DNA of 64,000 bases, taken from Bacteroidales bacterium. Its GTDB lineage: Bacteria > Bacteroidota > Bacteroidia > Bacteroidales > Marinilabiliaceae. The stretch covers positions 62,001 through 126,000 of the forward strand of contig SUWW01000010.1 in the NCBI GenBank assembly GCA_015061285.1, in the 5' to 3' direction. A model generated the notes under the pieces. It saw only the letters and a list, made by a program, of their open reading frames with translations. It was not told where the DNA came from and searched no databases. Of the stretch, positions 228-23,276 are shown piece by piece. The position numbers were made by a program, and so were the translations under genes. Positions within the stretch are counted from its first letter, which is position 1. Each line of letters starts with the position of its first letter.

Positions 228-259
228 TTTGTTTTGGTAGATACAAAACAATAACTTTG
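228..259 (+). promoter_or_regulatory. Bacteroidota-type promoter for the chemosensory operon
   Basis: TTTG at 228-231 is followed by a 20-base spacer and TAACTTTG at 252-259. This fits the known Bacteroidota sigma factor consensus (TTTG, N19-21, TAnnTTTG). Transcription should start near 266, about 47 bases before the first ATG at 313. No equally good match was noticed within the downstream gene string, so this may drive most of it. Confidence 0.65.
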
Positions 260-312
260 AGGTTTGTAGTATGTAAGAATATTATTCTTTTACTAACTGA
301 AAACCGAAAAAG

Positions 313-822
313 ATGAAAAAGATATTGGTCTTATTGCTGTTGTCGTTAGTGACGTATACAGCACATGCTCAGGTAGCAAAAGCAAAAGCAATGCTTATAT
401 TAAGTTTTGTGCGCTACGTTGGATGGAATGAATCAGTGAAAACTGGCGATTTTGTTATAGGAGTAGTGAAAGATAAAGAGTTGGTAGGATTTTTGAAAAA
501 ACAGTCTGAAGGAAAGAAATTTGGTTTTCAGGATGTTGTAATAAAGGAGTTTAATAGTGCTGAGGATATAACAGATTGTCAAGTAATTTGTGTTTCTCAG
601 AAATATAACTTCATAAAGAATGCAGATAAAATAATAGATAAAGTAGGTAAAAACACATTAATTATCACGGAAGTTGAAGGAGCCACAGCAAGAGGTTCAA
701 TGATTAACTTCGTAGTAAGAGATGAAAAATTGAAATTTGAATTGCATAAGCACAATGCTCAAGTGGCAGGAATATTGATAAGTGCGAAGCTATCAGATAT
801 GAGTTCTGCCATAAACCTTTGA
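313..822 (+). CDS. YfiR-like (DUF4154) periplasmic protein
   Basis: The 169-residue product has a clear signal peptide (MKKILVLLLLSLVTYTAHAQ, cleavage likely after AHA). The rest matches the YfiR/DUF4154 pattern: an early LSFVRYVGW segment, the alternating VIGVVKDKEL strand, a mid-protein CQVICVS strand with two cysteines, and a final strand/helix with INFVVRDEKLKFELH. In Pseudomonas, YfiR is a periplasmic protein that represses the membrane diguanylate cyclase YfiN. No cyclase is present here. The next gene, 30 bases downstream, is a chemoreceptor with a periplasmic domain, so by inference this protein may modulate that receptor. It is the first gene of the long operon. Family assignment is fairly secure; partner and role are not. 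Confidence 0.75.
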   Translation: MKKILVLLLLSLVTYTAHAQVAKAKAMLILSFVRYVGWNESVKTGDFVIGVVKDKELVGFLKKQSEGKKFGFQDVVIKEFNSAEDITDCQVICVSQKYNFIKNADKIIDKVGKNTLIITEVEGATARGSMINFVVRDEKLKFELHKHNAQVAGILISAKLSDMSSAINL

Positions 823-852
823 TAAATAAGTAAAAAAGAAAAGAAGTAAACC

Positions 853-2589
853 ATGGGAAAAGTAGCGAGTTTTTTGGGTAAGTTGAATATTAACCAAAAA
901 ATGAAAATTGGTTTTGGTGTAATTTTCACTTTCATATTACTTAATGCTATTGTAACAATTGTAATACACATAGTTACACAAGCTAAGCAATCGACAGAGA
1001 CTGAGGAGTATTTGCCTGTAAAAGCAGACCTTCTTGAGATGCAAAATCTCATAACTGAATCTAAACGATTGACAGCTAGTTGGGTATATATAGAAAAGCA
1101 AGATAAGACTCCAGATAAATTACGTCTTCGTACTGTAGTAGATACTACTTTCACTGAGGTTTACACCAACGTAAAGGAAAAGACACAAGGATGGGAAAGC
1201 GAATTTACCGACACATTGAATTATCTTGATAGTAGAATTCAAGAATATTTTGATCTACAACGCCAAGTGATGAGCAATCTGAGCACTTTTGATGCTTATG
1301 ATGATATGATGGCGCAGATGGAGAGTGAAAATTTAGCTGGTCCCGATGGCGACATTGCAATTATGTCTGTTGAGCTAAATCAAGTGATGCAGTACATGAT
1401 TGATATATGCGATGAAAAATGTACAGATATAAAAGATAGCATACAGACATACACTAATATTCAATTGTTTGTAGTTGTGTTTATGAGTTTATTAGTTATA
1501 GCGATAGCTGTTTTTGTAGCTATTATACTCATACAATCAATAGTAAAACCATTGAAAGATGGTGTTGAATTTGCGCAAGCTATTGGTAATGGTAATTTGA
1601 ACGCAAGCATCTCAGTTCATTCAAACGATGAAATAGGACAATTGTGTGATGCTTTGCGACAAATGGCTGTTAATCTTAGAAACATTGTATTCACCATAAA
1701 TACAAACTCAAGCAAATTGGTAGTTTCAGGTGAGACTCTTAAGTCAAACTCAATGAAATTGTCGAAAGGAGCATCAGAACAAGCTGCATCAGCCGAAGAG
1801 GTTTCTACGGCTATAGAGGAGATGGTTGCTAATATCGATCAAAACACAGAAAACGCCATTGCTACAGAGAAAATTACATCTTCGACTGTTGAAAATGTTA
1901 ACTTATCAAGTCAGTATTCAAATGAGGCAGCCGAGGCTATGGGTATAATATCTCAGAAGATTACCATAATATCAGATATAGCATTCCAAACGAACATATT
2001 AGCGTTGAATGCTGCGGTTGAAGCAGTTCGAGCTGGTGAACATGGCAAAGGATTCTCTGTAGTAGCTGCAGAGGTAAGAAAGTTGGCAGAAAGAAGTAAA
2101 CAGGCTGCTAAAGAAATAGTTGACTTGGTAAATAAAGGTATGAAAGTATCGCAACTTGCTGGAGAAAAAGCAAAAGCCTTAGTACCTGATATTGAAAAGA
2201 CAACAGTTCTTATAAAGGAGATATCTGCTGCTTCAATAGAGCAAAAAACAGGAGCAGAGCAGATTAATACTGCAATGCAGAATCTTAATGTAATTACTCA
2301 AGAAAATGCTTCAGCGAGTGATGAACTTACTAATAGTTCTTTGGAGTTGTCGCAATTGGCAGATAACCTAAAGAAGGTTGTAGGTTTCTTCAAACTCGAT
2401 GGAGAACAAGCAACTGAAGAAGAAAACACAAACAATTCGTCGAATAATACAGTAGAAAACAATTTTTCAGAGCAATCAAGTGCAGAAGTTGTAAGAGAGG
2501 CAAGACAATCACAAACAACAGGCACGACAATTGATTTAGGTAAGTTATCTACTAAAGATCTCGATGATGGTAACTATGAATCTTTCTAA
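853..2589 (+). CDS. Methyl-accepting chemotaxis protein with C-terminal CheR-tether-like pentapeptide
   Basis: The 578-residue transmembrane chemoreceptor has TM1 at about 19-40, an extracytoplasmic helical sensor region at about 41-205, TM2 at about 206-230, a HAMP domain to about 285, and a long methyl-accepting coiled coil. The hairpin tip lies near residues 376-415 and contains [20 protein letters not shown], which is very close to the universal CheA/CheW-binding tip. The tip reads EAVRAGE where EAARAGE is usual. An Asn/Glu/Ser-rich flexible tail of about 60 residues ends in NYESF at the extreme C-terminus. That resembles the NWETF-type pentapeptide by which some receptors tether CheR. 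It is the only receptor gene in the operon, next to the YfiR-like gene. It signals to CheA and is modified by CheR, CheB and CheD, all encoded downstream. The ligand is unknown. Confidence 0.93.
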
Positions 2590-2601
2590 ATCTATTTTGC
2601 T

Positions 2602-2907
2602 ATGAGCGAATATAAAATAGAAGTTGTTGAAAAGAAGGAAGGAGCAGAAATACATTGTTCTGGTAATTTGGTAATCAACAACATAGAAAAAATAGTTGAA
2701 TACATACGTGAAAATGTTAGTCTTGAGCGAGGGTATACATTATATGTAGATAATCCAGAGAACATAGATATAACATTCATTCAATTAATAATATCAATGC
2801 GAAAGCAAATAGAGGCAAGTAGTAATAAGTTGGCAGTAAAAATGGAGCTAAAAGACGACATGCGCCAACTTATAAGTAAAGCAGGATTAGATTACGCAAT
2901 AAAATAA
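2602..2907 (+). CDS. STAS-domain protein
   Basis: The 101-residue cytosolic protein begins 12 bases after the receptor gene. The pattern of a hydrophobic beta strand (GAEIHCSGNLVI), a helix, a second strand (GYTLYVDNP) and then IDITFIQLIISMRKQ fits the STAS fold of anti-sigma-factor antagonists. At the position where SpoIIAA-like proteins carry the phosphorylated serine, the local alignment suggests a threonine (in DITF). Its place between the receptor and CheY suggests either an adaptor of the array or a phospho-switch handled by the kinase/phosphatase pair encoded later in the operon. The STAS call is made from pattern alone and is moderately secure. The partner is unknown. Confidence 0.65.
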   Translation: MSEYKIEVVEKKEGAEIHCSGNLVINNIEKIVEYIRENVSLERGYTLYVDNPENIDITFIQLIISMRKQIEASSNKLAVKMELKDDMRQLISKAGLDYAIK

Positions 2908-2924
2908 TATAACATACCGAATAT

Positions 2925-3290
2925 ATGGCAAAGACAGTTCTTATAGTTGACGACTCAGAGAGTATACGTGAGGTTGTGAACTTTACTCTTCAAAACGAAG
3001 GATATGAAGTTTTAGTAGGAGTAGATGGAGAAGATGCATTGAAATTTCTTGATGGTCGTAATATAGACATAGTTATTACCGACCTTCACATGCCAAATCT
3101 CGATGGTTTAGGTTTAATTCGTAAGATTCGTGAAATGGATGCCTACAAGCATATTCCTATCTTGTTTCTTACAACAGAATCTCAGACCGAAAAGAAGATG
3201 GAGGCTAAGGAAGCCGGTGCAACAGGATGGATTATTAAACCATTTGTTCCTGCAAAATTACTGAGCGCTATTTCTCGTGTACTTCGTTAA
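2925..3290 (+). CDS. cheY: CheY-type single-domain response regulator
   Basis: The 121 residues form a complete receiver domain with no output domain. The acidic pocket is D9/D10 (VDDSES), the phospho-acceptor is D53 in ITDLHMP, the switch threonine sits in FLTTES, and the conserved lysine is in IIKPF. It should take phosphate from CheA, encoded immediately downstream. As no flagellar motor gene is visible, its target is unknown. It could control a gliding, secretion or envelope process, or feed the other regulators of this operon. The 79-base gap before cheA contains no clear promoter box. Confidence 0.92.
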   Translation: MAKTVLIVDDSESIREVVNFTLQNEGYEVLVGVDGEDALKFLDGRNIDIVITDLHMPNLDGLGLIRKIREMDAYKHIPILFLTTESQTEKKMEAKEAGATGWIIKPFVPAKLLSAISRVLR

Positions 3291-3369
3291 TAATTAATTA
3301 ACGAGTAGTTTAACGATAGAAATATTTTATAAATGACACGCTAGGAAAAGAAATAGAAAGTTATCAACT

Positions 3370-5457
3370 ATGGATGATGCGATAGATAAGTTCAAAGAGA
3401 AATTCAAAGAAGAAGCTCTCGATAATGTCGCTAACATAGAAGAATCGCTTTTTCAGTTAGAAAACGAACCGGATAATAAAGAGTTGATAGAAAAACTCTT
3501 CCGTTCGATGCATACTATAAAAGGCGGTGGTGCTATGTTTGGTTTCAATGATTTGAGTACGTTTACACATAATCTAGAGACCATATACGACCTTATACGA
3601 AACGACAAATTAGCTGTAACTAAGGATGTTATTTCGTTGACTTTTGAGAGTTTGGATTACATTCGTCAATTACTCGACTTGGGTGTATTGACGGATCCGG
3701 ATGATATTGCGCGTCAGAAAGACTATATCGATCGCATTCAAAAGTATTTTCCTGAAGGCGAAGGATTATATGTTAATCCAAACAAAAAAGCAGCTGCATC
3801 ACAGCCTACAGCTACACCACAAGCAGCACCTGCTCCTAAAGGTGGAAAGAAAAACTATTTGGTAAATTTCTTCCCATTAGACACGTTATTGAATAATGGT
3901 TCAAACCCATTCTTCATAATTGACGATCTAACAGCAATGGGCGATTACAAAACGCTAGCTTTTATCAATGAAATAAAGCCGTTTAGCGAATTGAGTCCAT
4001 TATCGCTTGGTATTAAGTGGCAAATAATATTATCTACTGAGCAAGATGTTAATGACATAAAAGATGTTTTCATCTTTGTCGAAGATGAATGTAAAGTAGA
4101 TATAAAGGAGCTTCCTGATGGTAAAATACTGGAAGACACTGAAAAATTGCCTAAAATTATCGAAGATGCCATTAGTCAAGGAAAACTATTAGAGGCAAGT
4201 CAATTCGATATATTCAAGACAGTAAAGCCTGAAGTAAAGGAGCAAAAAACAGAAGTAGCTAAGAAAGCACCAGCACAGCAAGAGAATAAAATATCTTCGA
4301 TGCGTGTTTCGTCAGTAAAGATTGATGAACTAGTTGATGCTGTGAGTGAGTTAGTTACTATGCAAGCTCAGCTTAATCTGGTAGCGAGCAAGATTGATAA
4401 CCAATCTTTGTTAACTATTACAGAACAGATGGAAAAACTTACACGTCAATTGCGTGAAAACTCGTTCGAGTTGAGTTTGATTCCACTTCAAGGTGAATTA
4501 GTTCGTTTCCAACGATTGGTTCGCGACCTTTGCAACAAACTTGGTAAACAGATGAAGTTTGAAGTTGAGGGTGGCGATATAGAGTTGGATAAGAATATCA
4601 TAGAGCATCTTACAGATCCACTCCTCCATATAATCAGAAATTCGGGTGACCATGGTATAGAATTGCCAGATGAACGTATAGCTAAGGGTAAAAATCCAGA
4701 AGGTATAATAAAACTCAAGGCATTCTATTCTGGTTCGTCTGTAGTAATAAAGATTATGGATGATGGTAAGGGTATGGATCCGAATAAGATTCTAAATAAA
4801 GCTATTGAGAAAGGTCTTGTCGATGTAAATACCAAACTATCGAAAAAAGAGATACTTAACTTGGTTTTTGCAAGTGGATTCTCCACGGCTGAAAAGGTAA
4901 GCGACGTATCAGGTCGTGGTGTTGGTATGGACGTAGTAAAGAGTAAAATAGCAGAAATTAGAGGCGAGGTTAGCATTGATTCTGAGATAGATCAAGGTAC
5001 TACAATAACATTAGACCTACCACTTACGCTATCTATCATAGATGGTTTGCTTACTAAGGTTAATAATGAGCAATTCATAATACCATTATCGAATATAGAA
5101 CGAATAGTATCATTCACTGATGTCGATTTCAATAAGAATAGTCAGAGTAGCATGTTTGTATATAACAACGAACAAGTTCTATGCATAAAACTTGACGAAT
5201 TCTTTTACAAAAAAGAGGAAGATCTCGACAAAGCAAAGATTGTTCTTGTTAGATGGAGTGAGAAGTTAGTTGGCTTGGTGGTAGATCAAGTTTTAGGTGA
5301 ATTCCAAATAGTAGTAAAACCTCTTGGACGCTTCTTACGTAAGATAGATATGATTTCAGGAGCTTCAGTTATGGGCGATGGTTCATTATCATTGGTAATA
5401 GATACTACCCGACTGATAAACTTCTATAATCAGAGAAAGTATAAGGTAAATCATTGA
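3370..5457 (+). CDS. cheA: Chemotaxis histidine kinase CheA
   Basis: The 695-residue CheA has all core domains in order. The HPt domain (P1) holds the phosphorylated histidine H48 in MHTIKGGGAMFGF. A Pro/Ala/Gln-rich linker near 137-155 leads into a P2-like domain at about 160-250. A second linker precedes the dimerisation domain near 310-370. The HATPase domain shows HIIRNSGDHGIE, DDGKGMD and GRGVGMDVV. A C-terminal CheW-like domain starts near 555. It autophosphorylates under receptor control and passes phosphate to CheY and CheB. Length and motifs are normal for the family, with no sign of inactivation. Two cheW genes follow within a few bases. Confidence 0.96.
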   Translation: MDDAIDKFKEKFKEEALDNVANIEESLFQLENEPDNKELIEKLFRSMHTIKGGGAMFGFNDLSTFTHNLETIYDLIRNDKLAVTKDVISLTFESLDYIRQLLDLGVLTDPDDIARQKDYIDRIQKYFPEGEGLYVNPNKKAAASQPTATPQAAPAPKGGKKNYLVNFFPLDTLLNNGSNPFFIIDDLTAMGDYKTLAFINEIKPFSELSPLSLGIKWQIILSTEQDVNDIKDVFIFVEDECKVDIKELPDGKILEDTEKLPKIIEDAISQGKLLEASQFDIFKTVKPEVKEQKTEVAKKAPAQQENKISSMRVSSVKIDELVDAVSELVTMQAQLNLVASKIDNQSLLTITEQMEKLTRQLRENSFELSLIPLQGELVRFQRLVRDLCNKLGKQMKFEVEGGDIELDKNIIEHLTDPLLHIIRNSGDHGIELPDERIAKGKNPEGIIKLKAFYSGSSVVIKIMDDGKGMDPNKILNKAIEKGLVDVNTKLSKKEILNLVFASGFSTAEKVSDVSGRGVGMDVVKSKIAEIRGEVSIDSEIDQGTTITLDLPLTLSIIDGLLTKVNNEQFIIPLSNIERIVSFTDVDFNKNSQSSMFVYNNEQVLCIKLDEFFYKKEEDLDKAKIVLVRWSEKLVGLVVDQVLGEFQIVVKPLGRFLRKIDMISGASVMGDGSLSLVIDTTRLINFYNQRKYKVNH

Positions 5458-5461
5458 AAAC

Positions 5462-5920
5462 ATGGAAGAAGAAAAAATAGTATCGCTGACAACATTTCGC
5501 TCGGCAGGTGAGTATTTTGCATTCGAAACCATAAGGATTCGCCATATACTCGAAAATATGAAGCCAACATCTGTTCCGCTTACTAAGGATTATATACTTG
5601 GTATAATTAATAACCATGGTAATATGATACCAGTAGTAGACTTCAGAAAGATAACTGGTGCAAAGAACTATGAAGAAAATACAGATGATAGCTCAATAAT
5701 AGTAGTCGCTTGTGAAGACAATGGAGGAGAGCAACTTGTATCCTTCAAAGTTGACGAAGTTGACGATGTATTGAATTGCAACATAGATGATATATCGAAA
5801 GAAGTAATCTATGAAGTTGAACCAAACGTGCAAAAGGCACTTACTGGAACTATAAAATTAGGCGACAAATTCATCTATACAGTAGATATAGACACAATAG
5901 CAAAAGTGATAGAACAATAG
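5462..5920 (+). CDS. cheW: CheW-like coupling protein (first copy)
   Basis: The 152-residue single-domain CheW starts 4 bases after cheA. Typical features are the starting strand (LTTFRSAGEYFAFET), the VPLTKDYILGIINNHGNMIPVVDFR core, and the late TGTIKLGDKFIYTVDID segment. It should bridge receptor tips to CheA in the signalling array. It differs considerably from the second copy that follows, which suggests specialised roles rather than a recent duplication. Confidence in the family is high. Confidence 0.92.
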   Translation: MEEEKIVSLTTFRSAGEYFAFETIRIRHILENMKPTSVPLTKDYILGIINNHGNMIPVVDFRKITGAKNYEENTDDSSIIVVACEDNGGEQLVSFKVDEVDDVLNCNIDDISKEVIYEVEPNVQKALTGTIKLGDKFIYTVDIDTIAKVIEQ

Positions 5921-5923
5921 GAT

Positions 5924-6394
5924 ATGGAAGAAGAACAGATAAATTCATACCTAACATTCAAGATAGGCGAAGAACTTTATGGAGTTCATGTGGAACAAGT
6001 TTCGGAAATTTTGGAATATAAAGATCCCGAGACTCGTACGAGTAATTTGCCATATCTTTTAGGCTTAGTTGACCATCGCGGAAACATTATTCCGTTGATA
6101 GACACGAGTATAAAATTTGGTGGGCAAGCCATAAAAACAGATGACAAGGTATGCTTATTAGTTCTTAACATAAAAAATGGTGAAGAAACGTTTGAAGTGG
6201 CATTAATTGTGAATGAGATTTCTGACGTATTGACCATAGAAGAAGAAGAAAAATCACACATTGAGACTAATTATAAGCCAGGATACGTGCAATTTGCAGT
6301 CAAAAGAGAAGATTTATTTATGCTCGTAATTGATGCAAATAAAGTATTTGGTGATACAGAAATAGTCGAAATGAAAAAATTTAGTAGTAAGTAG
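5924..6394 (+). CDS. cheW: CheW-like coupling protein (second copy)
   Basis: The 156-residue CheW starts 3 bases after the first copy. It keeps YLTFKIGEELYGVHVEQVSEI, LPYLLGLVDHRGNIIPLID and the late FAVKREDLFMLVIDANKVF strand. This copy is closer to the textbook CheW pattern than the upstream one. Two CheW proteins with a single receptor and CheA may allow mixed arrays, or allow one of them to link other operon proteins to the array (inference). Confidence 0.93.
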   Translation: MEEEQINSYLTFKIGEELYGVHVEQVSEILEYKDPETRTSNLPYLLGLVDHRGNIIPLIDTSIKFGGQAIKTDDKVCLLVLNIKNGEETFEVALIVNEISDVLTIEEEEKSHIETNYKPGYVQFAVKREDLFMLVIDANKVFGDTEIVEMKKFSSK

Positions 6395-6398
6395 TTAC

Positions 6399-7271
6399 AT
6401 GTCGGTAAACGAGAATCTATCAAGCGGCTCCGAGTTAGACTGCTTCAAGGCAGAGCTTTCAGCGGCAGACTTCAAGATCTTCAGCAATTATATTTATTCC
6501 GAGTTTGGAATAAAGATGCCGGAGGTTAAGAGAGTTATGCTTCAAGGAAGATTACTAAAGCGAATCCGTCAATTGAAGATGTCCTCGTATTCCGAGTATA
6601 AAGAATATTTTTTCAGTAAAGAAGGGCAGCAAAAGGAGTTATACAACTTTTTGAGCGTAGTAACGACCAACAAAACTGACTTTTTTAGAGAGCCAGTACA
6701 TTTTGATTTTTTATCTAATACGCTATTACCCGAAATGGTAAATGAGCAAAAAAAATCGATGGTAAAGATTTGGTCGGCAGCATGTTCAAGTGGTGAAGAG
6801 CCGTATACTATAAGCATAGTTCTGAATGAATTCAAAGAAGAGCATCCGCAGATTGGATTTAGTATACTAGGCACCGACATTTCACTAAATGTTCTTGATA
6901 AAGCTGCAAAAGGTATATATGCAGAGAAAGAAGTAGAGCTAATGCCACTCAATTTGAAAAAAAAATATTTCCTTAGAAGTAAGGACAGAAAGAACCCAAC
7001 AGTTAAGGTTCAGCCTATACTTCAAAAAAATATTTCACTTCAGTACCTGAATTTGATGGATTCGGTATACGATTTGAAGGATACTTTTGATGTTATTTTT
7101 TGTAGAAACGTGTTGATCTATTTTGATAGGGAGACACAAGAAAAAGTGATAAATAAATTATGTGAGAGATTGATACCAGGAGGATACTTATTCATAGGAC
7201 ACAGTGAATCAGTAGCTAATATGAACGTACCATTAATAAACATAAAACCAACGATTTTCAAAAGAAAATAA
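6399..7271 (+). CDS. cheR: Chemoreceptor glutamate methyltransferase CheR
   Basis: The 290-residue CheR methylates glutamates on the chemoreceptor using S-adenosylmethionine. The N-terminal helical domain covers about 15-90. The catalytic domain has the expected landmarks: TNKTDFFREPVHF, the SAM-binding IWSAACSSGEEPYTISI, LGTDIS, and FCRNVLIYFD near the end, followed by GGYLFIGHSES. All the key motifs that are eroded in the two later CheR-like genes of this operon are intact here, so this is the likely active enzyme. The NYESF tail of the receptor may be its docking site. It is 4 bases from the second cheW. Confidence 0.95.
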   Translation: MSVNENLSSGSELDCFKAELSAADFKIFSNYIYSEFGIKMPEVKRVMLQGRLLKRIRQLKMSSYSEYKEYFFSKEGQQKELYNFLSVVTTNKTDFFREPVHFDFLSNTLLPEMVNEQKKSMVKIWSAACSSGEEPYTISIVLNEFKEEHPQIGFSILGTDISLNVLDKAAKGIYAEKEVELMPLNLKKKYFLRSKDRKNPTVKVQPILQKNISLQYLNLMDSVYDLKDTFDVIFCRNVLIYFDRETQEKVINKLCERLIPGGYLFIGHSESVANMNVPLINIKPTIFKRK

Positions 7272-7285
7272 AAACAAAGCGATAT

Positions 7286-8185: not shown

Positions 8186-8196
8186 AAAAACGGCGA

Positions 8197-8670
8197 ATGG
8201 AATATTCACAACATTTTTTATATCCATCGTCATTTTTCACGAGTCGAGAGCCTTATATAGTGAAGACAGTTCTAGGTTCGTGTGTGGCAGTTTGTCTTTG
8301 GGATAAGCGGTTACACTTTGGAGGAATAAATCACTATATGTTGCCAATGTGGAATGGAGCAGATTTAGCCTCACCCAAATATGGCAATATAGCGATTGAG
8401 AAGTTGTTGGAGAGAATGCGAAGTATGGGAAGCCGCACCGAAGACTTGCAAGCAAAAGTTTTTGGCGGAGGAGACCTACTTAGCGTATCGGGCGAATCAT
8501 CGACAACAAAGATAGGTGAGCGGAATATTGAGGTAGCCAAAATGATGCTTGCACAAGAGAAAATACCGATTGTGGGCTCAAGTTTGGGAGGAAAACGGGG
8601 AAGAAAAATTATTTTTCTTACCGATACGGGAGAAGTAAGGCATAAGTTTCTCGAAAAACACGAGATATAG
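8197..8670 (+). CDS. cheD: Chemoreceptor glutamine deamidase CheD
   Basis: The 157-residue protein has the CheD signature: [14 protein letters not shown], containing the catalytic cysteine and preceding threonine, then GGINHYMLP with the catalytic histidine. KVFGGGDLL and [13 protein letters not shown] follow. CheD converts specific receptor glutamines into methylatable glutamates. With CheR and CheB on either side, the adaptation system of this operon is complete. It starts 11 bases after the histidine-kinase-like gene. Confidence 0.94.
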
Positions 8671-8684
8671 AAGCGAATAATGTC

Positions 8685-9839: not shown

Positions 9840-9884
9840 AAACACATAGCCGTCGTTTAAGAGGCTTTTCATATTTACTAATTG

Positions 9885-13972: not shown

Positions 13973-13974
13973 AT

Positions 13975-14904: not shown

Positions 14905-14915
14905 GGAATAGGTAT

Positions 14916-17537
14916 ATGAAGAATAAGAAACAGCAAACAGTGTTCAAATACCTTTCGCCTCGGGGCTTTTCCGAGATACAATGGTATGCCGCTTTTGTGG
15001 CAGTCATTGTTGTGCTCTTTATTGGATGGACCTCGGTGATGAGCCTTTTAGGCTTTAGTGTCTCCTTTTTTAGTATAGCATACTTACACAGAAGTTTATT
15101 TGTTTGGTTGTTCGATATAGCTGTAGTTCTGCTGCCGCTGTTTGTATTATATATTAGTAACTATCGTCGCATAAAACTCAATGAGCTTAAGCGAAAAATA
15201 GATGACCTTCAAGGGCAAATAGATACCAGTATAATTATGGCCGGCAAGATTGGTGCTGGTCAAGAACTCGAGGAACAAACCGAAGACGAAGAGAGCGAAC
15301 TTCAGAAAGCTTTGCTCGCACTAGGTAAAAACCTTTCGGATACAAAAGAGAAAGAGCAGCAATTTGGTTGGGTAAGTAAAGGCAAGGAAAAAATATCAGA
15401 TATTCTTCGTGTAAACAACGACCTTGAAGAGTTGGCTGTTGCTTCGCTTCAAGGTATTGTGTCGTATTATGGTGCAGTGCAAGGCGTATTTTTTATACTC
15501 GATGATAATGGTATTTTGAAAGCAGTTACGCAGTATGCATACGACCGTCGCAGATATGAAAAAGTAGAAATAAAGATTGGTCATGGGCTTGTTGGAGCAG
15601 CGGCATACGAGAAACAGATTATCTATCGCACTGAAATCCCCGACGACTATTTCACGATAACATCTGGATTGCTCAACGACCAAAAGCCTAAGTCGATACT
15701 CATTATACCTTTGCTGCAAGAGCAACAAGTGCAAGGCGTGCTTGAATTGTCATTCTTCCGCAAAAGTTTGCCTGATTATTTCATATCTCTTGCTGAAGAA
15801 ATAGGCAATGTTGTAGGCGGTAGTATCTACAACATGAAGAATAATCTGCGCACCGAAAACCTTCTCCACGAATCGCAAAAAATGACTGAAACGCTCCGAA
15901 AAAATGAGGAGCAACTTCGTGAAAATGCGCGCGAGATGATGGAAGCTCAAGAGCAACTTGAGACATCAAATAAGGAATTGGCAGAAAAGATGCGTGAAGT
16001 CGAACTTGCGCAGAAAAAACTACAAGCATTGCTTACCAATGCTTCAGAATTCATATCGATATATGATGAAAATAGAGAGCTAGTTTTCGAGAGTCCATCC
16101 ATTCGACGAATATTGGGATATGAAGCCGATGAAGAGGTTCATGGTATGGACGAGGAGATGATGACTCCACGAGGCTATAAGAGCATATGTAGTATGTTCG
16201 ATTATTTGCTTGAAACACCAGGAGGCGAGGCAGCCGAGCAATACACCTATCTAAAGAAAAATGGAGAAAAGATATTCCTTGAGACTCAGGGTAAGAACCT
16301 TATACACGACCCCGCTATTAGAGGCTTAATATTCAATACTCGCGATATTACAGAGCGTAAACGTGCCGAGAAAGAGGAACGCATGAAGAGCCGTATGCAA
16401 TCACTGTCGGAGAACTCTCCGGATATGATTATACGTACGAACACGAAAGGAAAGATGGTTTATGCCAATCCAGCAGCATCGAAATTCCTGCAGAAAGATG
16501 TCGCAGAGCTTGTAAACATGCGAATTTCAGAGATTGATACAAACCCTAATTTTGTTCAATATATTACTGATACGCTCAAAGATATTCGACGAAGCAAAGA
16601 GGCAGTAGAATCTGAAATAGAAGTAGAATTTGATGGAGAGCAACGCATAGTAGAAATAAAAGGCATACCAGAATTTGGTGAAAATGAGGAACTTGAGTCG
16701 GTTCTATATTCAGCGCATGATGTTACTGAGTTGAAGCGAATAGAGCAAGAAGTGAAAGATAAGAATAAGAAGATTCAGGATAGTATTAACTATGGTAAGC
16801 GCATACAGATGGCCATAATGCCTGAAGCATCTATATATCAGCAAAGTTTCCCAAATTCATTCATGTTCTATCGACCAAAAGATGTCGTATCAGGCGACTT
16901 CCCTTGGTATTTTGAATGGGGTGATGTTAGCTATGTAGCTGCTGTCGACTGTACAGGTCATGGAGTGCCAGGCGCAATTCTTTCTATTATCGGCTATTTG
17001 ATGCTAACAAATATTGTAGATAATGGACATGAGCTCACAGCAGCTCAGATTCTTGATAGACTACATGCAGCAGTACGTCGCACATTACGTCAAGATGTCG
17101 ATGGTGCCAATGGTAGAGAAGGTATGGATATCGGTTTGTGCAGAATCGACAAATCGAAGAAAGAGCTACAATTTGCAGGTGCGCACCGACCATTGTATTA
17201 TATGCGCGATGGTGAGTTTACAGAGTATAAAGCATCAAGAAAAGGTATAGGTGGTATACCTTTGCCAGGTCGTCCGGAAAAGGATTTTGAAAACAATGTA
17301 ATAGAATATAAAGAGGGAGATCGATTCTTTGTATTCTCCGACGGATTGCCCGACCAATTAGGAGGCGGCCCAGGAGTAAAAAAGAAATACCAGACATCGC
17401 GATTCAAAGACTTGCTCGATCGTGATAAAAACGAAAGTATGGTAGGAATCGAGAAAGACCTTATAAAAGACTTCTATGAATGGGTTGGAGACGAGAAACA
17501 AGTCGACGACGTTTTACTTATAGGAATCGAATTATAA
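14916..17537 (+). CDS. Membrane GAF-PAS-PAS PP2C (SpoIIE-type) serine/threonine phosphatase, SiaA-like
   Basis: The 873-residue protein has two membrane segments near 22-48 and 64-84, a GAF domain at about 165-310, a long coiled coil, two PAS domains (about 375-480 and 485-605), and a PP2C/SpoIIE phosphatase at about 616-873. Metal-binding motifs are all present: DVVSGDFPW, AAVDCTGHGVPGA, FSDGLPDQ, and the final QVDDVLLIGIEL. The enzyme should dephosphorylate Ser/Thr on a partner protein. The kinase-like and SiaC-like genes directly downstream make SiaC the obvious substrate, by analogy with SiaA-SiaB-SiaC of Pseudomonas. Pseudomonas SiaA has a HAMP-PP2C layout, so the sensory half here is different. 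Confidence 0.9.
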   Translation: MKNKKQQTVFKYLSPRGFSEIQWYAAFVAVIVVLFIGWTSVMSLLGFSVSFFSIAYLHRSLFVWLFDIAVVLLPLFVLYISNYRRIKLNELKRKIDDLQGQIDTSIIMAGKIGAGQELEEQTEDEESELQKALLALGKNLSDTKEKEQQFGWVSKGKEKISDILRVNNDLEELAVASLQGIVSYYGAVQGVFFILDDNGILKAVTQYAYDRRRYEKVEIKIGHGLVGAAAYEKQIIYRTEIPDDYFTITSGLLNDQKPKSILIIPLLQEQQVQGVLELSFFRKSLPDYFISLAEEIGNVVGGSIYNMKNNLRTENLLHESQKMTETLRKNEEQLRENAREMMEAQEQLETSNKELAEKMREVELAQKKLQALLTNASEFISIYDENRELVFESPSIRRILGYEADEEVHGMDEEMMTPRGYKSICSMFDYLLETPGGEAAEQYTYLKKNGEKIFLETQGKNLIHDPAIRGLIFNTRDITERKRAEKEERMKSRMQSLSENSPDMIIRTNTKGKMVYANPAASKFLQKDVAELVNMRISEIDTNPNFVQYITDTLKDIRRSKEAVESEIEVEFDGEQRIVEIKGIPEFGENEELESVLYSAHDVTELKRIEQEVKDKNKKIQDSINYGKRIQMAIMPEASIYQQSFPNSFMFYRPKDVVSGDFPWYFEWGDVSYVAAVDCTGHGVPGAILSIIGYLMLTNIVDNGHELTAAQILDRLHAAVRRTLRQDVDGANGREGMDIGLCRIDKSKKELQFAGAHRPLYYMRDGEFTEYKASRKGIGGIPLPGRPEKDFENNVIEYKEGDRFFVFSDGLPDQLGGGPGVKKKYQTSRFKDLLDRDKNESMVGIEKDLIKDFYEWVGDEKQVDDVLLIGIEL

Positions 17538-17568
17538 ATTTAAGTACTATATTTACACACTTTTAATT

Positions 17569-18153
17569 ATGTGCAGTATGAATAAAATAGTAGGAAGCAA
17601 AGACTTCTTAGAGTTTGCATATGAGTTATATCACACTATGCAAGCCAATGAAATTAACTTGGTCTATGAAGGAGTCGTAACGCAAGAAATTACAAAGACT
17701 TTCACTGCGTTGACCGAGAAGAACATGGTAAAGAACGAAGAGTCGAACCAAGTTCAGCGTAAGGTATTCAACGTAATGGTGGAATGTTTGCAAAATATTA
17801 GTAAGCATGCCGATGCGATGACAGAGAATGCCGACGAAGAGCGTCGAGGTATTGTTTTAGTTAGTCATGGCGAGAACTTCTACAATGTCATTACAGGCAA
17901 TGTGATAAAGAAGGAAAAGAGAGATCGACTTGAAAAGAGTCTTGAGCATATTAATAGTCTCGACAAAGAAGGTCTTTCGGCATTGTATAAACAACAAATC
18001 AAAGAAGGAAAATTATCAGAAAAAGGCGGCGCAGGTCTTGGTTTTATTGATATAGCTAAGAAATCGGGAAACAAGATAGAGTATCAATTCAAAGAATTGA
18101 CAGACGATCGCTTTTTCTTCATAGTAATAACAACCATTTCAAGAAATAACTAA
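17569..18153 (+). CDS. SiaB-family (DUF6272) protein kinase
   Basis: The 194-residue cytosolic protein has a GHKL-type ATPase layout: an N box with VMVECLQNISKHAD and a glycine-rich G2 box GGAGLGFIDIAKKSG. This is the SiaB/DUF6272 pattern, whose members phosphorylate SiaC on a threonine. A second in-frame ATG at 17578 is an equally possible start, as neither has a strong ribosome binding site. It lies between the PP2C phosphatase and the SiaC-like gene, so the three form a complete phosphorylation/dephosphorylation switch. No SiaD-like diguanylate cyclase follows. Confidence 0.85.
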   Translation: MCSMNKIVGSKDFLEFAYELYHTMQANEINLVYEGVVTQEITKTFTALTEKNMVKNEESNQVQRKVFNVMVECLQNISKHADAMTENADEERRGIVLVSHGENFYNVITGNVIKKEKRDRLEKSLEHINSLDKEGLSALYKQQIKEGKLSEKGGAGLGFIDIAKKSGNKIEYQFKELTDDRFFFIVITTISRNN

Positions 18154-18171
18154 TAGACAAACCCCAAAATA

Positions 18172-18546
18172 ATGGACGTAATAAGTATAAAAGGTACAGA
18201 TGATACGCCAAGCGTAACACTTGACAAAGACAAAGGCGAATTTGTTTTCGAAGGTCGTTCACTTCCAGAAGATGTAGGTGATTTTTATCAACCTATCCTT
18301 AATTGGTTGGATGCCTATGCTCAGGAGCCTAATGATACCACAGATGTTATGTTCAAACTTGAATATTTCAACACAGCATCGTCGAAGGTTATACTCGACA
18401 TTTTGCTCAAGTTTGAGGAAATCAATGATGCAAAAGGTGGAGTAACAATCAAGTGGCACTATCACGAGGACGAAGAGGATATGAAAGAGGCAGGTGAAGA
18501 ATATGAAGACATCGTCTCTGAGCCGTTTGAATATATTGTCTACTAA
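18172..18546 (+). CDS. SiaC-family (DUF1987) regulatory phosphoprotein
   Basis: The 124-residue protein has the DUF1987/SiaC hallmarks: GEFVFEGRSLPEDVGDFYQP, then WLDAYAQEP, then FKLEYFNTASSKVILDIL. The threonine in YFNTASSK is T68 by direct count. From memory this is also the number of the SiaB-phosphorylated threonine in Pseudomonas SiaC. In Pseudomonas, unphosphorylated SiaC activates the cyclase SiaD. Here no cyclase is encoded nearby, so SiaC must have another client, perhaps the FHA-like ABC transporter that follows 49 bases downstream (inference). Confidence 0.9.
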   Translation: MDVISIKGTDDTPSVTLDKDKGEFVFEGRSLPEDVGDFYQPILNWLDAYAQEPNDTTDVMFKLEYFNTASSKVILDILLKFEEINDAKGGVTIKWHYHEDEEDMKEAGEEYEDIVSEPFEYIVY

Positions 18547-18595
18547 TATGTAGGCAAGATGTTTTATACACCGCACTATAAGAAGATAGTAACAC

Positions 18596-21500
18596 ATGAG
18601 TGAAGAAATCCTTGGCGCTCTGATGGAATTGTTTGGCTTGATAGCCAAGCAAGACGATGGAGTTGAAGCAGCAGAAGTCGAGTATGTACGACAATTTCTC
18701 AAATCTCAAATAGAGATTGAGAAAATAGAGTCGTATATGGCGTTGTTTACTGAGAAAGCAAAATCTACAGTAAAATACGACAAAGACGGCAACCCAATAG
18801 TTGACGTGCGCGACTCTGTGAAGATCCTCGGATTCTGTCGCAAGATAAACAAGAAACTCAACCGCGAGCAGAAGGTTGTTGTATTGGTGCGTATCTATGA
18901 GATGCTCAGCGTTTCTCGCAAATTCACCGAGAAGCGTATGGAGGTCATCAATACAGTAGCTGACGTATTCACCTTAGCAAAAGATGAGGTTAAGGCTATT
19001 GAGGCATTCAACGTTCAAGACGACATTGCTAACCTCGATATACAGTCGATACTCATAGCTAACGAACAAGAGGATCAAACATTTACAAACGCACTTCACG
19101 TTACAGTTGGTGCACTCGATGGAAACATATTCATACTGCGTGTTCAGAGTGCCAACATGTACTTTATTCGTTACCTGGGTAACCAAGAAGTGTTTGTGAA
19201 TGGACAACTTTTGGCGCCACGTCACGTCTACCCTCTCTCGAAAGGTAGTTTTATAAAAATGCCGCAAGGCGCACCACTCTACTATACTGATATTGTAGCA
19301 AAATTCATGAACGAGACAACGCTCCAAAAGATCTCGTTCGAAGTGAAGAATATGTACTATCGCTTCAAAAATGGAGCATTAGGCTTGCGCAATATTAATA
19401 TGGCCGAAGAGCAAGGTAAGCTCATAGGTATTATGGGTGCGTCGGGAGCAGGTAAGACTACCCTTTTGAATGTTCTTTGTGGTAATGAAGCTCCATCGGA
19501 AGGCGAAGTTCTTATCAATGGTCTCAATTTGCATACTCAGAGTGATTTGCTTGAAGGTGTAATTGGCCTTATTCCGCAAGACGATCTTCTTATAGAGGAA
19601 CTTACTGTATATCAAAATCTTTACTACAACACAAAACTCTGCTTCAAAGACAAAACGGAAGAAGAGATAGACCAAATGGTCTGCAATACGCTTATGAGTT
19701 TGGGCCTTTACGAACGTAAGGACCTGACTGTTGGCTCGCCACTTAATAAGACAATTAGTGGTGGTCAACGCAAGCGTTTGAATATTGCTCTTGAGCTTAT
19801 TCGCGAGCCAGCTATTCTCTTCGTTGATGAGCCAACTTCGGGCTTGTCTTCTCGCGACTCAGAGAACGTTATGAATCTTTTGCGTGAGTTGTCGCTCAAA
19901 GGCAAACTTGTGTTTGTGGTAATCCACCAACCATCATCGGATATCTACAAGATGTTCGATAAGATGTTTATTCTTGATACTGGAGGTTATCCAGTATACT
20001 ATGGCAACCCAACGCAGTCAATCACATATTTCAAGCACCTCGATGAACAGGTAAATGCAGATGTGGGCGAATGTCCTGTTTGTGGTAACCTTAATCCAGA
20101 ACTTGTTTTCAACGTGCTCGATGCTTCGGTAATCGATGAGTATGGTAATTATACCAATCAACGTAAGGTTAAACCTGAAGAGTGGTATAATAAGTATGTA
20201 GAAAATATTGAATTACCCAAAGTTAAGACCGTTACTGATCAGCCACCGCGTGGGCTAAATATACCAAGTTGGTTTAAGCAGTTTAGAATATATACTGTGC
20301 GCGATTTTTGGGCAAAAATCAGTAATACACAGTATATACTTTTGAACATACTCGAAGCCCCATTGTTGGGTTTCATCTTGGCTTATCTAATTCGCTACAT
20401 TGTTGACCCAGATTCAGATGTATATATTTTCCGCGAAAACGAGAATATACCTATCTATATATTCATGGGCATCATCGTGGCAATATTCTTTGGTCTGATC
20501 ATTTCAGCGGAAGAGATATTCAAAGATGCCAAGATTCTTAAGCGAGAAGCATTCTTGAACCTTAGTAGGTCGGCATACCTTGTATCGAAGATTTTTATCC
20601 TTATGGGTATATCGGCTATTCAGATGATTTTATTCCTATTGGTTGCTAATGCAATAATTGGATTCAAAGGCATGAACGTTGAGTTCTTCTTGATGTTGTT
20701 CTCAGTTTCAGTGTCGTCCAACTTGATAGGTTTGATAATATCATCAGCGTTTAACTCGATAGTAACCATATATATTATGATTCCGCTTCTGATGATACCA
20801 CAGATGGTGTTGGGCGGAGCTATGTTTACTTTCGATAAACTAAATAAAGACTTTACGACAGTAGGCGAAGTGCCTCTCATAGCAGAGTTTATTCCAGCAC
20901 GATTTGCCTACGAAGGTCTGACAGTTTATCAGTATAAGCATAATAATTATGGAAGACTATTCTTCGCCGATGAGATGAAGAAGAGTCAAGCTAACTACAA
21001 GCAGGTATATTACTTACCAGAGTTGACAACAGCGCTCGACAAAGTTGGCAATAGTTTCAAAGTAGGCACTCAAAAAGACGAGTCGGGTGCATACGAGAAG
21101 AGCTATGTAGCCGATTTGGCTTTGTTGCACAACGAACTTGGTAAAGAAACCAAGAGAATACCAGATATTGAGTTTGCTTTGTTAGATAAACTTACGCCAG
21201 ATGCATTCAATAGCGAAGTATATGATGCTACACAACAGTATATCAATCAATTGTCGGCATTCTATTCTGAGATGACGCGTACGTCAATAGATAATATAGA
21301 CAGAAGAATAGATTATTATCTTGAGAATAAAAAGGATTTGTTCCTTGCGACAAAAGATGCGTACTATAATGAGCAGTTGGCTGACATATTGAAGAAGACA
21401 TTCGACAAGAACAAGATTTTGCGCGATGGAGAAAATCTTATTCAAGTGTTAGATCCTATATATCAAATGCCTGAGCCTAAAGGATTATTACCATTCCGTA

Positions 21501-21769
21501 CACATTTCTTTGCTCCATATAAATATGTTCCAATAATAGGCGTATTTGTTGAAACACTGTGGTTCAACATCATATCAATATGGTTGCTTTCGGTATTTTT
21601 CTATATAGTTCTTTACTTCGATTGGGCGCGACGTGCGATAGAGTATCTTTCGCATGTAGATTATAAGGAGATATTTGATAACATAAAACAGCATTTACCT
21701 AAAATACAGAAACCAAAATTTTTGAACAGCGTAAAAGCGATTGTTACCAAGAAGAAAACTAAGAAATAA
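18596..21769 (+). CDS. TerB-like/FHA-like/ABCG transporter fusion
   Basis: The 1057-residue protein joins ATPase and membrane domains. Residues 1-140 are helical and acidic with a TerB-like look (ALMELFGLIAKQDDGVEAAE). Residues 150-240 form a beta-rich, FHA-like segment (VFVNGQLL, PLSKGSFIKM). The ATPase follows, with Walker A GASGAGKTT near 281, signature ISGGQRKRLNIAL and Walker B ILFVDEPTSG: the ABCG (White) order. A CPVC pair occurs near 500. ABC2-type membrane helices begin near 575. A large soluble insertion lies between the last helices (about 780-960), with a final helix near 990. It probably moves lipid or another envelope substrate. The FHA-like part may read phosphothreonine set by the Sia switch (inference). 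Confidence 0.85.
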   Translation: MSEEILGALMELFGLIAKQDDGVEAAEVEYVRQFLKSQIEIEKIESYMALFTEKAKSTVKYDKDGNPIVDVRDSVKILGFCRKINKKLNREQKVVVLVRIYEMLSVSRKFTEKRMEVINTVADVFTLAKDEVKAIEAFNVQDDIANLDIQSILIANEQEDQTFTNALHVTVGALDGNIFILRVQSANMYFIRYLGNQEVFVNGQLLAPRHVYPLSKGSFIKMPQGAPLYYTDIVAKFMNETTLQKISFEVKNMYYRFKNGALGLRNINMAEEQGKLIGIMGASGAGKTTLLNVLCGNEAPSEGEVLINGLNLHTQSDLLEGVIGLIPQDDLLIEELTVYQNLYYNTKLCFKDKTEEEIDQMVCNTLMSLGLYERKDLTVGSPLNKTISGGQRKRLNIALELIREPAILFVDEPTSGLSSRDSENVMNLLRELSLKGKLVFVVIHQPSSDIYKMFDKMFILDTGGYPVYYGNPTQSITYFKHLDEQVNADVGECPVCGNLNPELVFNVLDASVIDEYGNYTNQRKVKPEEWYNKYVENIELPKVKTVTDQPPRGLNIPSWFKQFRIYTVRDFWAKISNTQYILLNILEAPLLGFILAYLIRYIVDPDSDVYIFRENENIPIYIFMGIIVAIFFGLIISAEEIFKDAKILKREAFLNLSRSAYLVSKIFILMGISAIQMILFLLVANAIIGFKGMNVEFFLMLFSVSVSSNLIGLIISSAFNSIVTIYIMIPLLMIPQMVLGGAMFTFDKLNKDFTTVGEVPLIAEFIPARFAYEGLTVYQYKHNNYGRLFFADEMKKSQANYKQVYYLPELTTALDKVGNSFKVGTQKDESGAYEKSYVADLALLHNELGKETKRIPDIEFALLDKLTPDAFNSEVYDATQQYINQLSAFYSEMTRTSIDNIDRRIDYYLENKKDLFLATKDAYYNEQLADILKKTFDKNKILRDGENLIQVLDPIYQMPEPKGLLPFRTHFFAPYKYVPIIGVFVETLWFNIISIWLLSVFFYIVLYFDWARRAIEYLSHVDYKEIFDNIKQHLPKIQKPKFLNSVKAIVTKKKTKK

Positions 21770-21787
21770 ACCATAAATCTTATAGTA

Positions 21788-22732
21788 ATGATAAAGCACA
21801 TGTCAATGGCCGTAGCATTGATCTGCGGTCTACATCTTATGGCAGGATGTTCAGGAAATTCAAACAATTCTGAGGGTTCATTAGATGAACCAATACCAGA
21901 TTCGACAATAACACACGGCCCTCTCGAAATTTCTGAAGGAGTTGTTAATGATATGATTCAAAACATATCTTCTCCTGTAGAGATGGCAAATATGATTCTT
22001 GGCTCGGGAGTTCCTTTCTCACAGCAAATGCTTAATTCTTCAGACAACATGAAGAACTACAGCACAAGCTTCAAAAGAGCTATAAACCTTGGTGCATATA
22101 GTGCTGACCTCGGTTATATCAACTGTTATAATAAAAACACCGTAGTTGTTTCTTATCTATTGGCAGTTAAGGAGTTGGCTGACGGTATTAATGTAGGTCA
22201 GTTTATTGATTTTGCTCATTTGAAGAGTTTGGCAACCAACTCATCAAATCTCGATTCGTTGAAACAGCTCTCTGTAACGAGCTTCAACGATATGGATAAA
22301 TATCTTCGTGAGCAGAAACGCGCTAACGTAAGTACTGCTATTGTAGCTGGTGCTTGGGCAGAAGGTATTTATCTCACATGTAGCGTTGTTGAGCAAATGC
22401 AAAAGAACCCTAGTGCAGATACAACTAAGCTAAAAGAACTTGTTAGCCGCATAGGTGAGCAAAAAGACATCGTGAATATTCTCAAAATTGTTGTTCACAA
22501 CTACTCTTTGAGTGATCGCAACTTCCAAACTTTGGAGGAGAAGATAAACGAACTTCAAAATGTATACGAAGCTGTACGCATTACAACCGAGTTCGCTCCG
22601 CCTGAAATGGTAGAACAAGATGGTATGCTTGTGATTGTACAACATGAGATTAGCCACGTAGAGATAACCGACGAACAGGTAGCTCAAATAATCGAAAAGA
22701 TTAAGGACCTTCGTGAGTTCATCGTGGGATAA
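21788..22732 (+). CDS. Lipoprotein of unknown function
   Basis: The 314-residue protein has a signal peptide ending in the lipobox LMAGC (Cys21), so it is a lipoprotein. The mature part begins with a Ser/Asn/Asp-rich linker and is then mostly helical, with no cysteine or glycine motif that I recognise (for example AINLGAYSADLGYINCYNK and AIVAGAWAEGIYLTCSVVEQ). The phrase GAYSADLGY...LLAVKELADGI recurs in uncharacterised Bacteroidota lipoproteins as I remember them, but no function is known to me. It follows the ABC transporter by 18 bases and is a possible accessory or cargo of it. Confidence 0.75.
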   Translation: MIKHMSMAVALICGLHLMAGCSGNSNNSEGSLDEPIPDSTITHGPLEISEGVVNDMIQNISSPVEMANMILGSGVPFSQQMLNSSDNMKNYSTSFKRAINLGAYSADLGYINCYNKNTVVVSYLLAVKELADGINVGQFIDFAHLKSLATNSSNLDSLKQLSVTSFNDMDKYLREQKRANVSTAIVAGAWAEGIYLTCSVVEQMQKNPSADTTKLKELVSRIGEQKDIVNILKIVVHNYSLSDRNFQTLEEKINELQNVYEAVRITTEFAPPEMVEQDGMLVIVQHEISHVEITDEQVAQIIEKIKDLREFIVG

Positions 22733-22776
22733 TGATAGTTGGCGAAAGAAGAGAACTAACAATAAAAAGGAATAAG

Positions 22777-23211
22777 ATGAAGAATATCATATTAACAGTT
22801 ATCGCCCTCTTCGGATTGGCATCAATTGCATCGGCACAATGTGGCGACGATTTGATGAAAAAAGCGCTCGGAGCAATGGGTGGTTACCAATACATCAAAG
22901 ACTTTGACATCAAAGTGCCAGCTGGAGCAGCCGATGGAGCTACATTTTCTATTGTGCTCAATAGCCGTACGCACTATCAAATAAACGTTGCGAATGGAGC
23001 TTCGAATCCTGAGCACGTTACTATCAAAATTTTCGATGCATCTGGCAAATTGATAGGTATCAATGCTTCGAATGGTAAAGTGTTCGATACTTTCCAGTTT
23101 ATTTGTGGTAAAACTGGCGCATACAAACTTCAAGTGACATGTTCGGGTGAAGCTTGTGCTCGCGCTGTGCTTTCTTTGGTTAAGCAGTATACTGAGGCAG
23201 AGATGCCATAA
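22777..23211 (+). CDS. Small exported beta-rich protein of unknown function
   Basis: The frame is open from an ATG at 22732. The start is placed at the ATG at 22777, because a typical signal peptide begins there (MKNIILTVIALFGLASIASA) and the purine-rich AAAAAGGAATAAG precedes it. The mature part of about 125 residues contains four cysteines and looks like a beta sandwich: FSIVLNSRTHYQINVANG, VTIKIFDASGKLIG, GAYKLQVTCSGEACARAVLS. It vaguely resembles pre-peptidase C-terminal (PPC-like) domains. It is the last gene of the operon before a strong terminator. Function unknown. Confidence 0.75.
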   Translation: MKNIILTVIALFGLASIASAQCGDDLMKKALGAMGGYQYIKDFDIKVPAGAADGATFSIVLNSRTHYQINVANGASNPEHVTIKIFDASGKLIGINASNGKVFDTFQFICGKTGAYKLQVTCSGEACARAVLSLVKQYTEAEMP

Positions 23212-23235
23212 GCATAAATATTCTACCAATAAAAC

Positions 23236-23276
23236 AAAAAGAGTGTGTCGGGGTTATTCTCGATACACTCTTTTTT
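23236..23276 (+). terminator. Terminator of the chemosensory/Sia operon
   Basis: GAGTGTGTCG (23241-23250) pairs with CGATACACTC (23261-23270), with one G-T pair, around a 10-base loop. It is preceded by five A and followed by six T, so it could act in both directions. It lies 25 bases after the last gene of the operon. Confidence 0.88.

Follow-up and report, generated by a model that had tools for sequence, protein, structure and literature searches.

The 64,000 bp of Bacteroidales DNA analyzed here (positions 62,001–126,000 of contig SUWW01000010.1, from a member of the Marinilabiliaceae; hereafter the window) carry a long series of genes in which a chemosensory cluster runs into genes for a Sia-type Ser/Thr phosphorylation switch and an ABCG-type transporter (Table 1). 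An earlier reading, made without database searches (the sequence-only reading), took this series for one hybrid system. Its gene order is indeed conserved, with the Sia switch beside a transporter that carries TerB and FHA-like domains, but in the loci examined the hybrid is the junction of two units that stand apart elsewhere, and the chemosensory array is dispensable. The core unit is shorter and occurs more widely than that reading had it; what holds together tightly and across many families is PP2C-SiaB-SiaC-ABC, in most loci accompanied by CheR and CheB. The surprising part is that enzymes of chemotaxis methylation are tied to a Ser/Thr switch even where the genome shows no receptor match. 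The phosphorylation switch and these tuning enzymes probably control the adjoining exporter.

The hybrid operon joins two separable units

The first unit, from the STAS gene to the GAF-PAS gene, is a chemosensory cluster, and the second has the order CheR-CheR-CheB-GAF-PP2C-SiaB-SiaC-ABC-lipoprotein-secreted protein. The 22 genomes behind the nearest transporter loci (L121–L141 and L177) all have a CheA match. In 13 of them the chemosensory and Sia/ABC genes are continuous, so the search for conserved order in other Bacteroidota that had been suggested with the sequence-only reading comes out in its favor; they are split in eight, and in one the transporter stands alone. The unbroken order runs on one contig from CheA (or from the YfiR or MCP gene where the stretch allows) to the transporter in L211–L222 and in Natronoflexus (L062/L131); the L222 stretch ends at SiaB and was counted as continuing in L134, whose contig has the same length. 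Two more linked cases stand beside the 22, namely genome G423 (L061) and the window itself. In six Carboxylicivirga-type genomes the series ends after PP2C, with no SiaB in the remaining 1.7–1.9 kb of the stretch, and SiaB-SiaC-ABC-lipoprotein-secreted protein lie elsewhere (L225–L227 and L229–L231, with L121–L123, L126, L127, and L129). The break lies between CheB1 and GAF-PAS in L223 and L224 (with L135 and L136), and the Marinilabiliaceae metagenome genome of L141, whose chemosensory locus was not fetched, keeps the transporter with no other unit gene within its stretch.

Nine further chemosensory loci (L232–L240; eight from other families and one the second such locus of G535) all contain CheY, CheA, CheW, CheR1, and CheB1, and in seven of the nine the same GAF-PAS gene follows CheB1; SiaB, SiaC, and the transporter are absent from every one of these stretches, which span 15–19.5 kb. 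A quick tree of 109 transporter proteins places all linked rows in one 24-row clade (SH-aLRT 100). Of the rows L134, L135, and L136, labeled by hand as linked to chemosensory genes, the last two carry wrong labels (2/17), the CheA of their genomes being on contigs of other lengths; the clade result is independent of them. In this tree the window's transporter has as its nearest neighbors L177, from an uncultured member of the Bacteroidales (70% identity), and rows of the Marinilabiliaceae. Thus, among the loci examined, the units are joined only in one clade, the Marinilabiliaceae and their kin, some members of which split them.

These distributions bear on the possibility that two independent systems happen to share an operon, in which case the chemosensory unit would act through CheY on surface motility or some other output, the Sia/ABC unit would act alone, and their adjacency would be incidental co-expression. 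This is a serious contender, to which we give a good deal less than even weight. It is in keeping with the nine separate chemosensory loci, the eight split relatives, the existence of the Sia unit in genomes without CheA and MCP matches, and the promoter-like sites inside the operon (below). The order that is continuous through to the transporter in the 13 near relatives, G423, and the window argues against it, as does the co-occurrence of CheA with the main transporter type (E < 1e-100) in a sample of the order: among the matches listed, 47 genomes have both, 13 CheA only, 15 the transporter only, and 123 neither, though shared ancestry can produce such a pattern.

CheA also occurs about 12–15 kb from a different SiaB-SiaC pair that lacks this transporter, on the opposite strand in L079 and on the same strand in L109, and on contig 116 of G520 the match positions separate a SiaB from a CheA on the same strand by about 12 kb. 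These cases were counted from the matches listed, and there may be more such neighbors.

The Sia/ABC unit is cohesive and widespread

Cohesion of the second unit was measured in 80 loci found by the transporter N-terminus alone, which are its best-scoring relatives. SiaC adjoins the transporter on its upstream side in 75 of the 78 loci that could be tested, and SiaB (71/72) and PP2C (63/69) are also upstream; the lipoprotein (72/73) and secreted protein (69/70) lie downstream. CheB2 and CheR are each present in 50 of 68 loci, the same 18 lacking both on that strand; in L143 and L193 CheR and CheB are nearby on the other strand. The run CheR-CheB-GAF-PP2C-SiaB-SiaC-ABC was found in at least 14 families of the order besides that of the window (L064–L069, L072, L077, L078, L081, L084–L086, L088–L090, L092, L093, and L096); loci L061–L120 were picked by their SiaB, so counts from them are partly biased. 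A version with one CheR is present in three genomes of one family in another order of the same class (L104, L106, and L107). Among the matches listed in 198 genomes of the order, 79 have both SiaB and the transporter, 10 SiaB only, five the transporter only, and 104 neither (Fisher p 2.5e-37, not corrected for kinship; transporters were counted at E < 1e-30, and 15 weaker matches were taken as absent). Relatives of the transporter head were found in at least 550 stretches in one scan of named genomes, including cultured Marinilabiliaceae and rumen metagenome genomes.

The protein adjacent to SiaC by position is the exporter, and it is on this account that SiaC is proposed to gate it; the contact between the two, and the direction in which control would pass, are what we infer. 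SiaC might instead regulate another partner, such as the GAF-PAS protein or an unlinked enzyme, with the transporter merely co-regulated. Gene position is what speaks for the SiaC-transporter contact, most transporter genomes have several related transporter matches among those listed, and the second SiaC of the window's genome is fused to a LytTR domain, which indicates that SiaC outputs vary. That SiaC immediately precedes the transporter in 75 of 78 loci, even where adjoining PP2C and chemosensory genes are absent (L121, L122, L123, L126, and L129), makes another partner rather unlikely, and related transporters adjoin a SiaB-SiaC pair, though convergently, in L095, L098, L099, and L119.

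In the last four loci the convergent transporters are of the TerB-FHA-ABCG kind, and genes upstream of the L099 SiaB-SiaC pair include those for GMP synthase, an S41 peptidase, an rRNA methyltransferase-like protein, and a STAS protein. The LytTR fusion lies on contig C22 of the window's own genome (L063 14836–16026), where a second SiaB adjoins SiaC fused to the LytTR DNA-binding domain and the genes upstream encode an ECF sigma factor and an Hpt protein; this Sia switch seems to be wired to transcription. Genomes of the order sample have up to 19 DUF6272 (SiaB) matches among those listed, some of them in reading frames roughly 380 or 500 residues long, and the order thus seems to have undergone an expansion of Sia-type switches.

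CheR and CheB in genomes without receptor matches

The search for CheA used a single domain (PF02895) and that for MCPs used PF00015, both at E <= 0.001, so divergent forms could escape; the control genomes were positive for both families. Among the matches listed, 15 genomes of the order have the transporter (E < 1e-100) and no CheA match. MCP matches are absent from twelve of these, whereas G438 and G523 carry some and G583 has one below the cut-off; the three genomes of the other order (L104, L106, and L107) have neither CheA nor MCP matches. CheB is present in 17 of the 18 transporter genomes without a CheA match among those listed, the sole exception being G517, which has a convergent-type transporter (L099). 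In 14 of the 18, CheB is present with no MCP match listed; these 14 genomes are 88–100% complete. CheB lies beside SiaB-SiaC-ABC in 13 of these 14 (L068, L081, L096, L104, L106, L107, L201, L202, L203, L205, L207, L208, and L209; the L202 stretch has no PP2C) and elsewhere in G459. In 10 of the 13 (G408, G412, G437, G447, G486, G545, G582, G049, G146, and G186) the unit's CheB is the only CheB match in the genome. CheR and CheB of L096 and L104 were confirmed with Pfam.

Since these genomes have CheR and CheB in the absence of MCP or CheA matches, the enzymes most likely have a substrate other than a chemoreceptor there, and since the Sia/ABC unit also occurs in such genomes, the array is not a necessary part of it. 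It could be argued that CheR2 and CheB2 are spare adaptation enzymes that act on chemoreceptors and not on the switch. The window's MCP has two strict methylation-consensus sites, and the GAF and PP2C proteins show no enrichment of the MCP-type motif, used as a marker of a CheR2 substrate; both results are in line with that idea. The 13 genomes that keep the unit's CheB without MCP and CheA matches, 10 of them with no other CheB among the matches listed, make it improbable.

Outputs sought in the genome of the window

The window's genome (3.55 Mb, 99% complete) has one CheA match and 13 MCP matches, two of which are parts of one frame. No flagellin match was found in it at E <= 0.001 (pilus and gliding genes were not searched for), which fits the description of the bacterium as nonflagellar and rules out a flagellar output for this genome. 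Likewise, no GGDEF match was found at E <= 0.001, where eight of 14 control genomes were positive, so the claim that a SiaD-type target is missing stands, and cyclic di-GMP (c-di-GMP) output is ruled out for this genome. A SiaABCD system with c-di-GMP output, for which the presence of SiaA, SiaB, and SiaC homologs could be cited, is in consequence extremely improbable.

A proposed mechanism

We favor, by a modest measure, a scheme in which PP2C and SiaB set the state of SiaC, SiaC gates the exporter, CheR2 and CheB2 give adaptation, and the array is an added input in one clade. The SiaA-like GAF/PAS-PP2C phosphatase, with the GAF membrane protein as its partner, and the SiaB kinase would set the phosphorylation of SiaC Thr68, and SiaC in one of its two states would bind the cytoplasmic TerB plus FHA-like head of the ABCG transporter and thereby switch export. 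The lipoprotein and the secreted protein may complete the export path or be its cargo. CheR2 and CheB2 would reversibly carboxyl-methylate a protein of the unit, most likely the membrane GAF or PP2C sensor and not a chemoreceptor, and so provide adaptation. In the Marinilabiliaceae and their kin, the upstream array (MCP-CheA-CheW-CheY with its own CheR1, CheB1, and CheD) would add receptor input; any cross-talk between array and switch might pass through CheY acting on the GAF or PP2C proteins.

More tentatively, and with rather less confidence than in the scheme itself, the unit may represent a self-contained Bacteroidota class of system in which PP2C-SiaB-SiaC directly gates an ABCG exporter and owes its adaptation to carboxyl methylation of a non-chemoreceptor sensor by CheR and CheB, with no need of CheA or MCP, and which in one clade has been docked onto a full array as its output.

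Genes and boundaries of the operon

Open reading frame (ORF) calls and Pfam give 22 consecutive genes on the + strand between 313 and 23211, where about 20 had been claimed; the intergenic gaps are indeed short, from −4 to 79 bases, with two overlaps. The MCP, Che, PP2C, SiaB, SiaC, and TerB/FHA-like ABCG genes named by the sequence-only reading are present where it placed them, and the chemosensory core of CheA, CheW, MCP, and CheY is complete by Pfam. Its list lacked the YfiR-like, STAS, and histidine kinase-like (HK-like) genes, the last without the phospho-accepting His, and, besides these, the second and third CheR, the receiver-less second CheB, two GAF(-PAS) membrane proteins, the lipoprotein, and the secreted protein.

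Table 1. Predicted genes and signals of the window operon, in order. Fractions are alignment rows.
Feature	Position (bp)	Strand	Evidence or remark
Bacteroidota-type promoter-like site	228..259	+	pattern TTTG-N20-TAACTTTG, consensus match only
YfiR/HmsC-like secreted protein (DUF4154)	313..822	+	Pfam E 1.4e-24
Transmembrane MCP (HAMP + MCPsignal), two strict methylation-consensus sites	853..2589	+	
Stand-alone STAS-like protein	2602..2907	+	below Pfam cut-off
CheY, single receiver domain	2925..3290	+	D53 in 30/30
CheA	3370..5457	+	sole CheA match in genome
CheW	5462..5920	+	Pfam
CheW	5924..6394	+	Pfam
CheR1	6399..7271	+	Pfam E 1.7e-61
HK-like protein with Asn (N57) at the H-box His position in 31/31, ATP-binding boxes intact	7286..8185	+	
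CheD	8197..8670	+	Pfam
CheB1, receiver + methylesterase	8685..9839	+	Pfam
Membrane GAF-PAS-PAS protein	9882..11774	+	closes chemosensory unit in 7/9 other loci
CheR2, opens Sia/ABC unit	11787..12593	+	R71, G103, E105, R210, N211 invariant 86/86
CheR3, S-adenosylmethionine (SAM) site partly degenerate	12618..13415	+	Pfam, alignment
CheB2, methylesterase without receiver domain	13412..13972	+	Ser-His-Asp triad 78/78
Membrane GAF protein	13975..14904	+	Pfam
SiaA-like membrane GAF-PAS-PAS-PP2C (SpoIIE) phosphatase	14916..17537	+	PP2C-site acidic residues 98/98
SiaB-family kinase (DUF6272)	17569..18153	+	E72 and N76 120/120
SiaC-family phosphoprotein	18172..18546	+	T68 in 116/116
TerB + FHA-like + ABCG-type ATPase and permease, one chain	18596..21769	+	membrane spans near 745 and 980 separated by a long segment
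Conserved lipoprotein	21788..22732	+	mostly helical model, pLDDT 85.7
Conserved small secreted protein	22732..23211	+	true start probably M16
Intrinsic terminator-like hairpin, 18 pairs, T tail	23236..23275	+	

The operon had been placed between one strong promoter and one strong terminator. A strong terminator-like hairpin is present (its surrounding stretch has a z-score of −7.3), and the promoter-like site is a match to the consensus only; two extra strict promoter-like matches lie inside the operon, in CheR2 (12070) and CheB2 (13636), so that three are observed where mononucleotide shuffles give 0.36. The internal matches leave room for an internal start, and the operon may not be a single transcript. 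Beyond the 3′ end of the operon the next large ORF is on the opposite strand. Farther downstream, at 26626–30064, ORFs resemble, as read from their translations, an ammonia-lyase-type enzyme, a ketoreductase, and an acyltransferase, and may belong to a cluster for a pigment or an aryl polyene.

The invariance counts given for the Sia/ABC unit cover rows above self-set score thresholds, some genomes entering twice; the distinct sequences behind them number 103 for SiaC, 109 for SiaB, 87 for PP2C, 70 for CheB2, 73 for CheR2, and 105 for the transporter, and the rows below threshold that were left out number 15 for SiaB, 19 for SiaC, 34 for PP2C, two for CheB2, 15 for CheR2, none for CheR3, and 13 for the transporter. 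CheR3 has no Asp at the SAM-binding Asp position in any of the 51 rows listed (of 52). The PP2C protein has a SpoIIE domain above the Pfam cut-off and scores 162.7 with the SiaA equivalog model (cut-off 700). SiaB exceeds the cut-off of the NCBIfam SiaB_fam_kinase model (170.6 bits against 85) and falls below that of the narrower kinase_SiaB equivalog (89.8 against 225). SiaC is above the Pfam SiaC cut-off and scores 83.6 with the SiaC equivalog model (cut-off 150); it is, judged by these profiles, a member of the family and not necessarily an ortholog of the SiaC of SiaABCD.

The signature Ser and catalytic Glu of the transporter are invariant in 116 of 116 rows. Its TerB plus FHA-like head was modeled with a pLDDT of 83.6, and Foldseek and VIA-align rows are mostly FHA plus TerB-like; read from the sequence, the FHA-like sandwich has no invariant Arg or Ser of the kind that makes up a phosphothreonine-binding pocket in 19 rows. 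The lipoprotein family has 21 invariant columns in 30 rows, Foldseek against PDB found no structural kin for it (best E 1.1), and a Pfam match to T3RM_EcoP15I_C (25.1 bits at a cut-off of 25) was judged spurious.

On the chemosensory side, the STAS protein was considered as a possible second phospho-target of the His-less kinase; the residue after its conserved Asp is I, V, or L in nearly all of 28 orthologs, and the Thr at +2 is variable. The HK-like alignment of 31 rows comprises the window and orthologs from L061, L062, and L211–L240, which make up a family of conserved His-less kinase-like proteins.

Comparison with known systems

CheR and CheB domains are found outside classical arrays in CheB-CheR-PAS-kinase fusion proteins; here, in contrast, CheR and CheB are separate proteins, tied both to a transporter and to a switch built on a Ser/Thr phosphatase. 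The gene set was not found described among the matches listed from titles and abstract openings in the open-licence literature, which does not imply its absence from print.

The first unit resembles chemosensory clusters whose STAS and histidine kinase genes are abbreviated S and K in a figure legend of PMC9239204, in having STAS, CheY, CheA, CheW, CheR, HK-like, CheD, and CheB together, and an auxiliary CheB without a receiver domain is described there for class F3. It differs from those clusters in that the HK-like protein has no phospho-accepting His, the genome has no flagellin match, and the Sia/ABC unit follows on directly in one clade. For Campylobacterota, PP2C, kinase, and STAS proteins have been proposed to combine with chemoreceptors or c-di-GMP enzymes (PMC9239204, excerpts), which likewise merges a Ser/Thr switch with another signaling layer, but in that proposal, as excerpted, they come without a transporter and without CheR and CheB in the switch.

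In Pseudomonas aeruginosa, SiaA and SiaB act on SiaC T68, whose phosphorylation blocks binding to the stalk of the target (PMC8457831 and PMC7647112, excerpts), and DUF1987 proteins in general have been suggested to modulate adjacent proteins (PMC8457831, excerpt). The P. aeruginosa SiaABCD system and the unit described here have in common a PP2C phosphatase, a SiaB kinase, a SiaC with Thr at position 68, and the order A-B-C-target. The target slot is occupied there by the diguanylate cyclase SiaD and here by the TerB-FHA-like-ABCG transporter; here, moreover, CheR/CheB and GAF genes precede, and the window's genome has no GGDEF match.

The Mycobacterium tuberculosis transporter Rv1747 is of the ABCG type. 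Rv1747 and PknF also pair Ser/Thr phospho-signaling with an FHA-bearing ABC exporter (PMC3908365, excerpt). The transporter here has, as expected of an Rv1747-like exporter, ABC ATPase and ABC-2 permease in one chain. There, however, the kinase is a Ser/Thr kinase of the PknF kind, whereas here a PP2C/SiaB/SiaC switch and a TerB domain are present, and the FHA-like domain here appears to lack an evident phosphothreonine pocket. This pair is the nearest precedent found for phospho-control of an FHA-bearing ABC exporter.

SiaC is known to act on a diguanylate cyclase, and CheR and CheB are known to act on chemoreceptors. Here SiaC lies beside an exporter in a genome without a GGDEF match, CheR and CheB are kept in relatives without MCP matches, and in both cases the active sites are retained. 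This makes two ideas testable, that a SiaC protein may act on a transporter and that chemotaxis-style methylation may serve as adaptation for Ser/Thr phospho-signaling.

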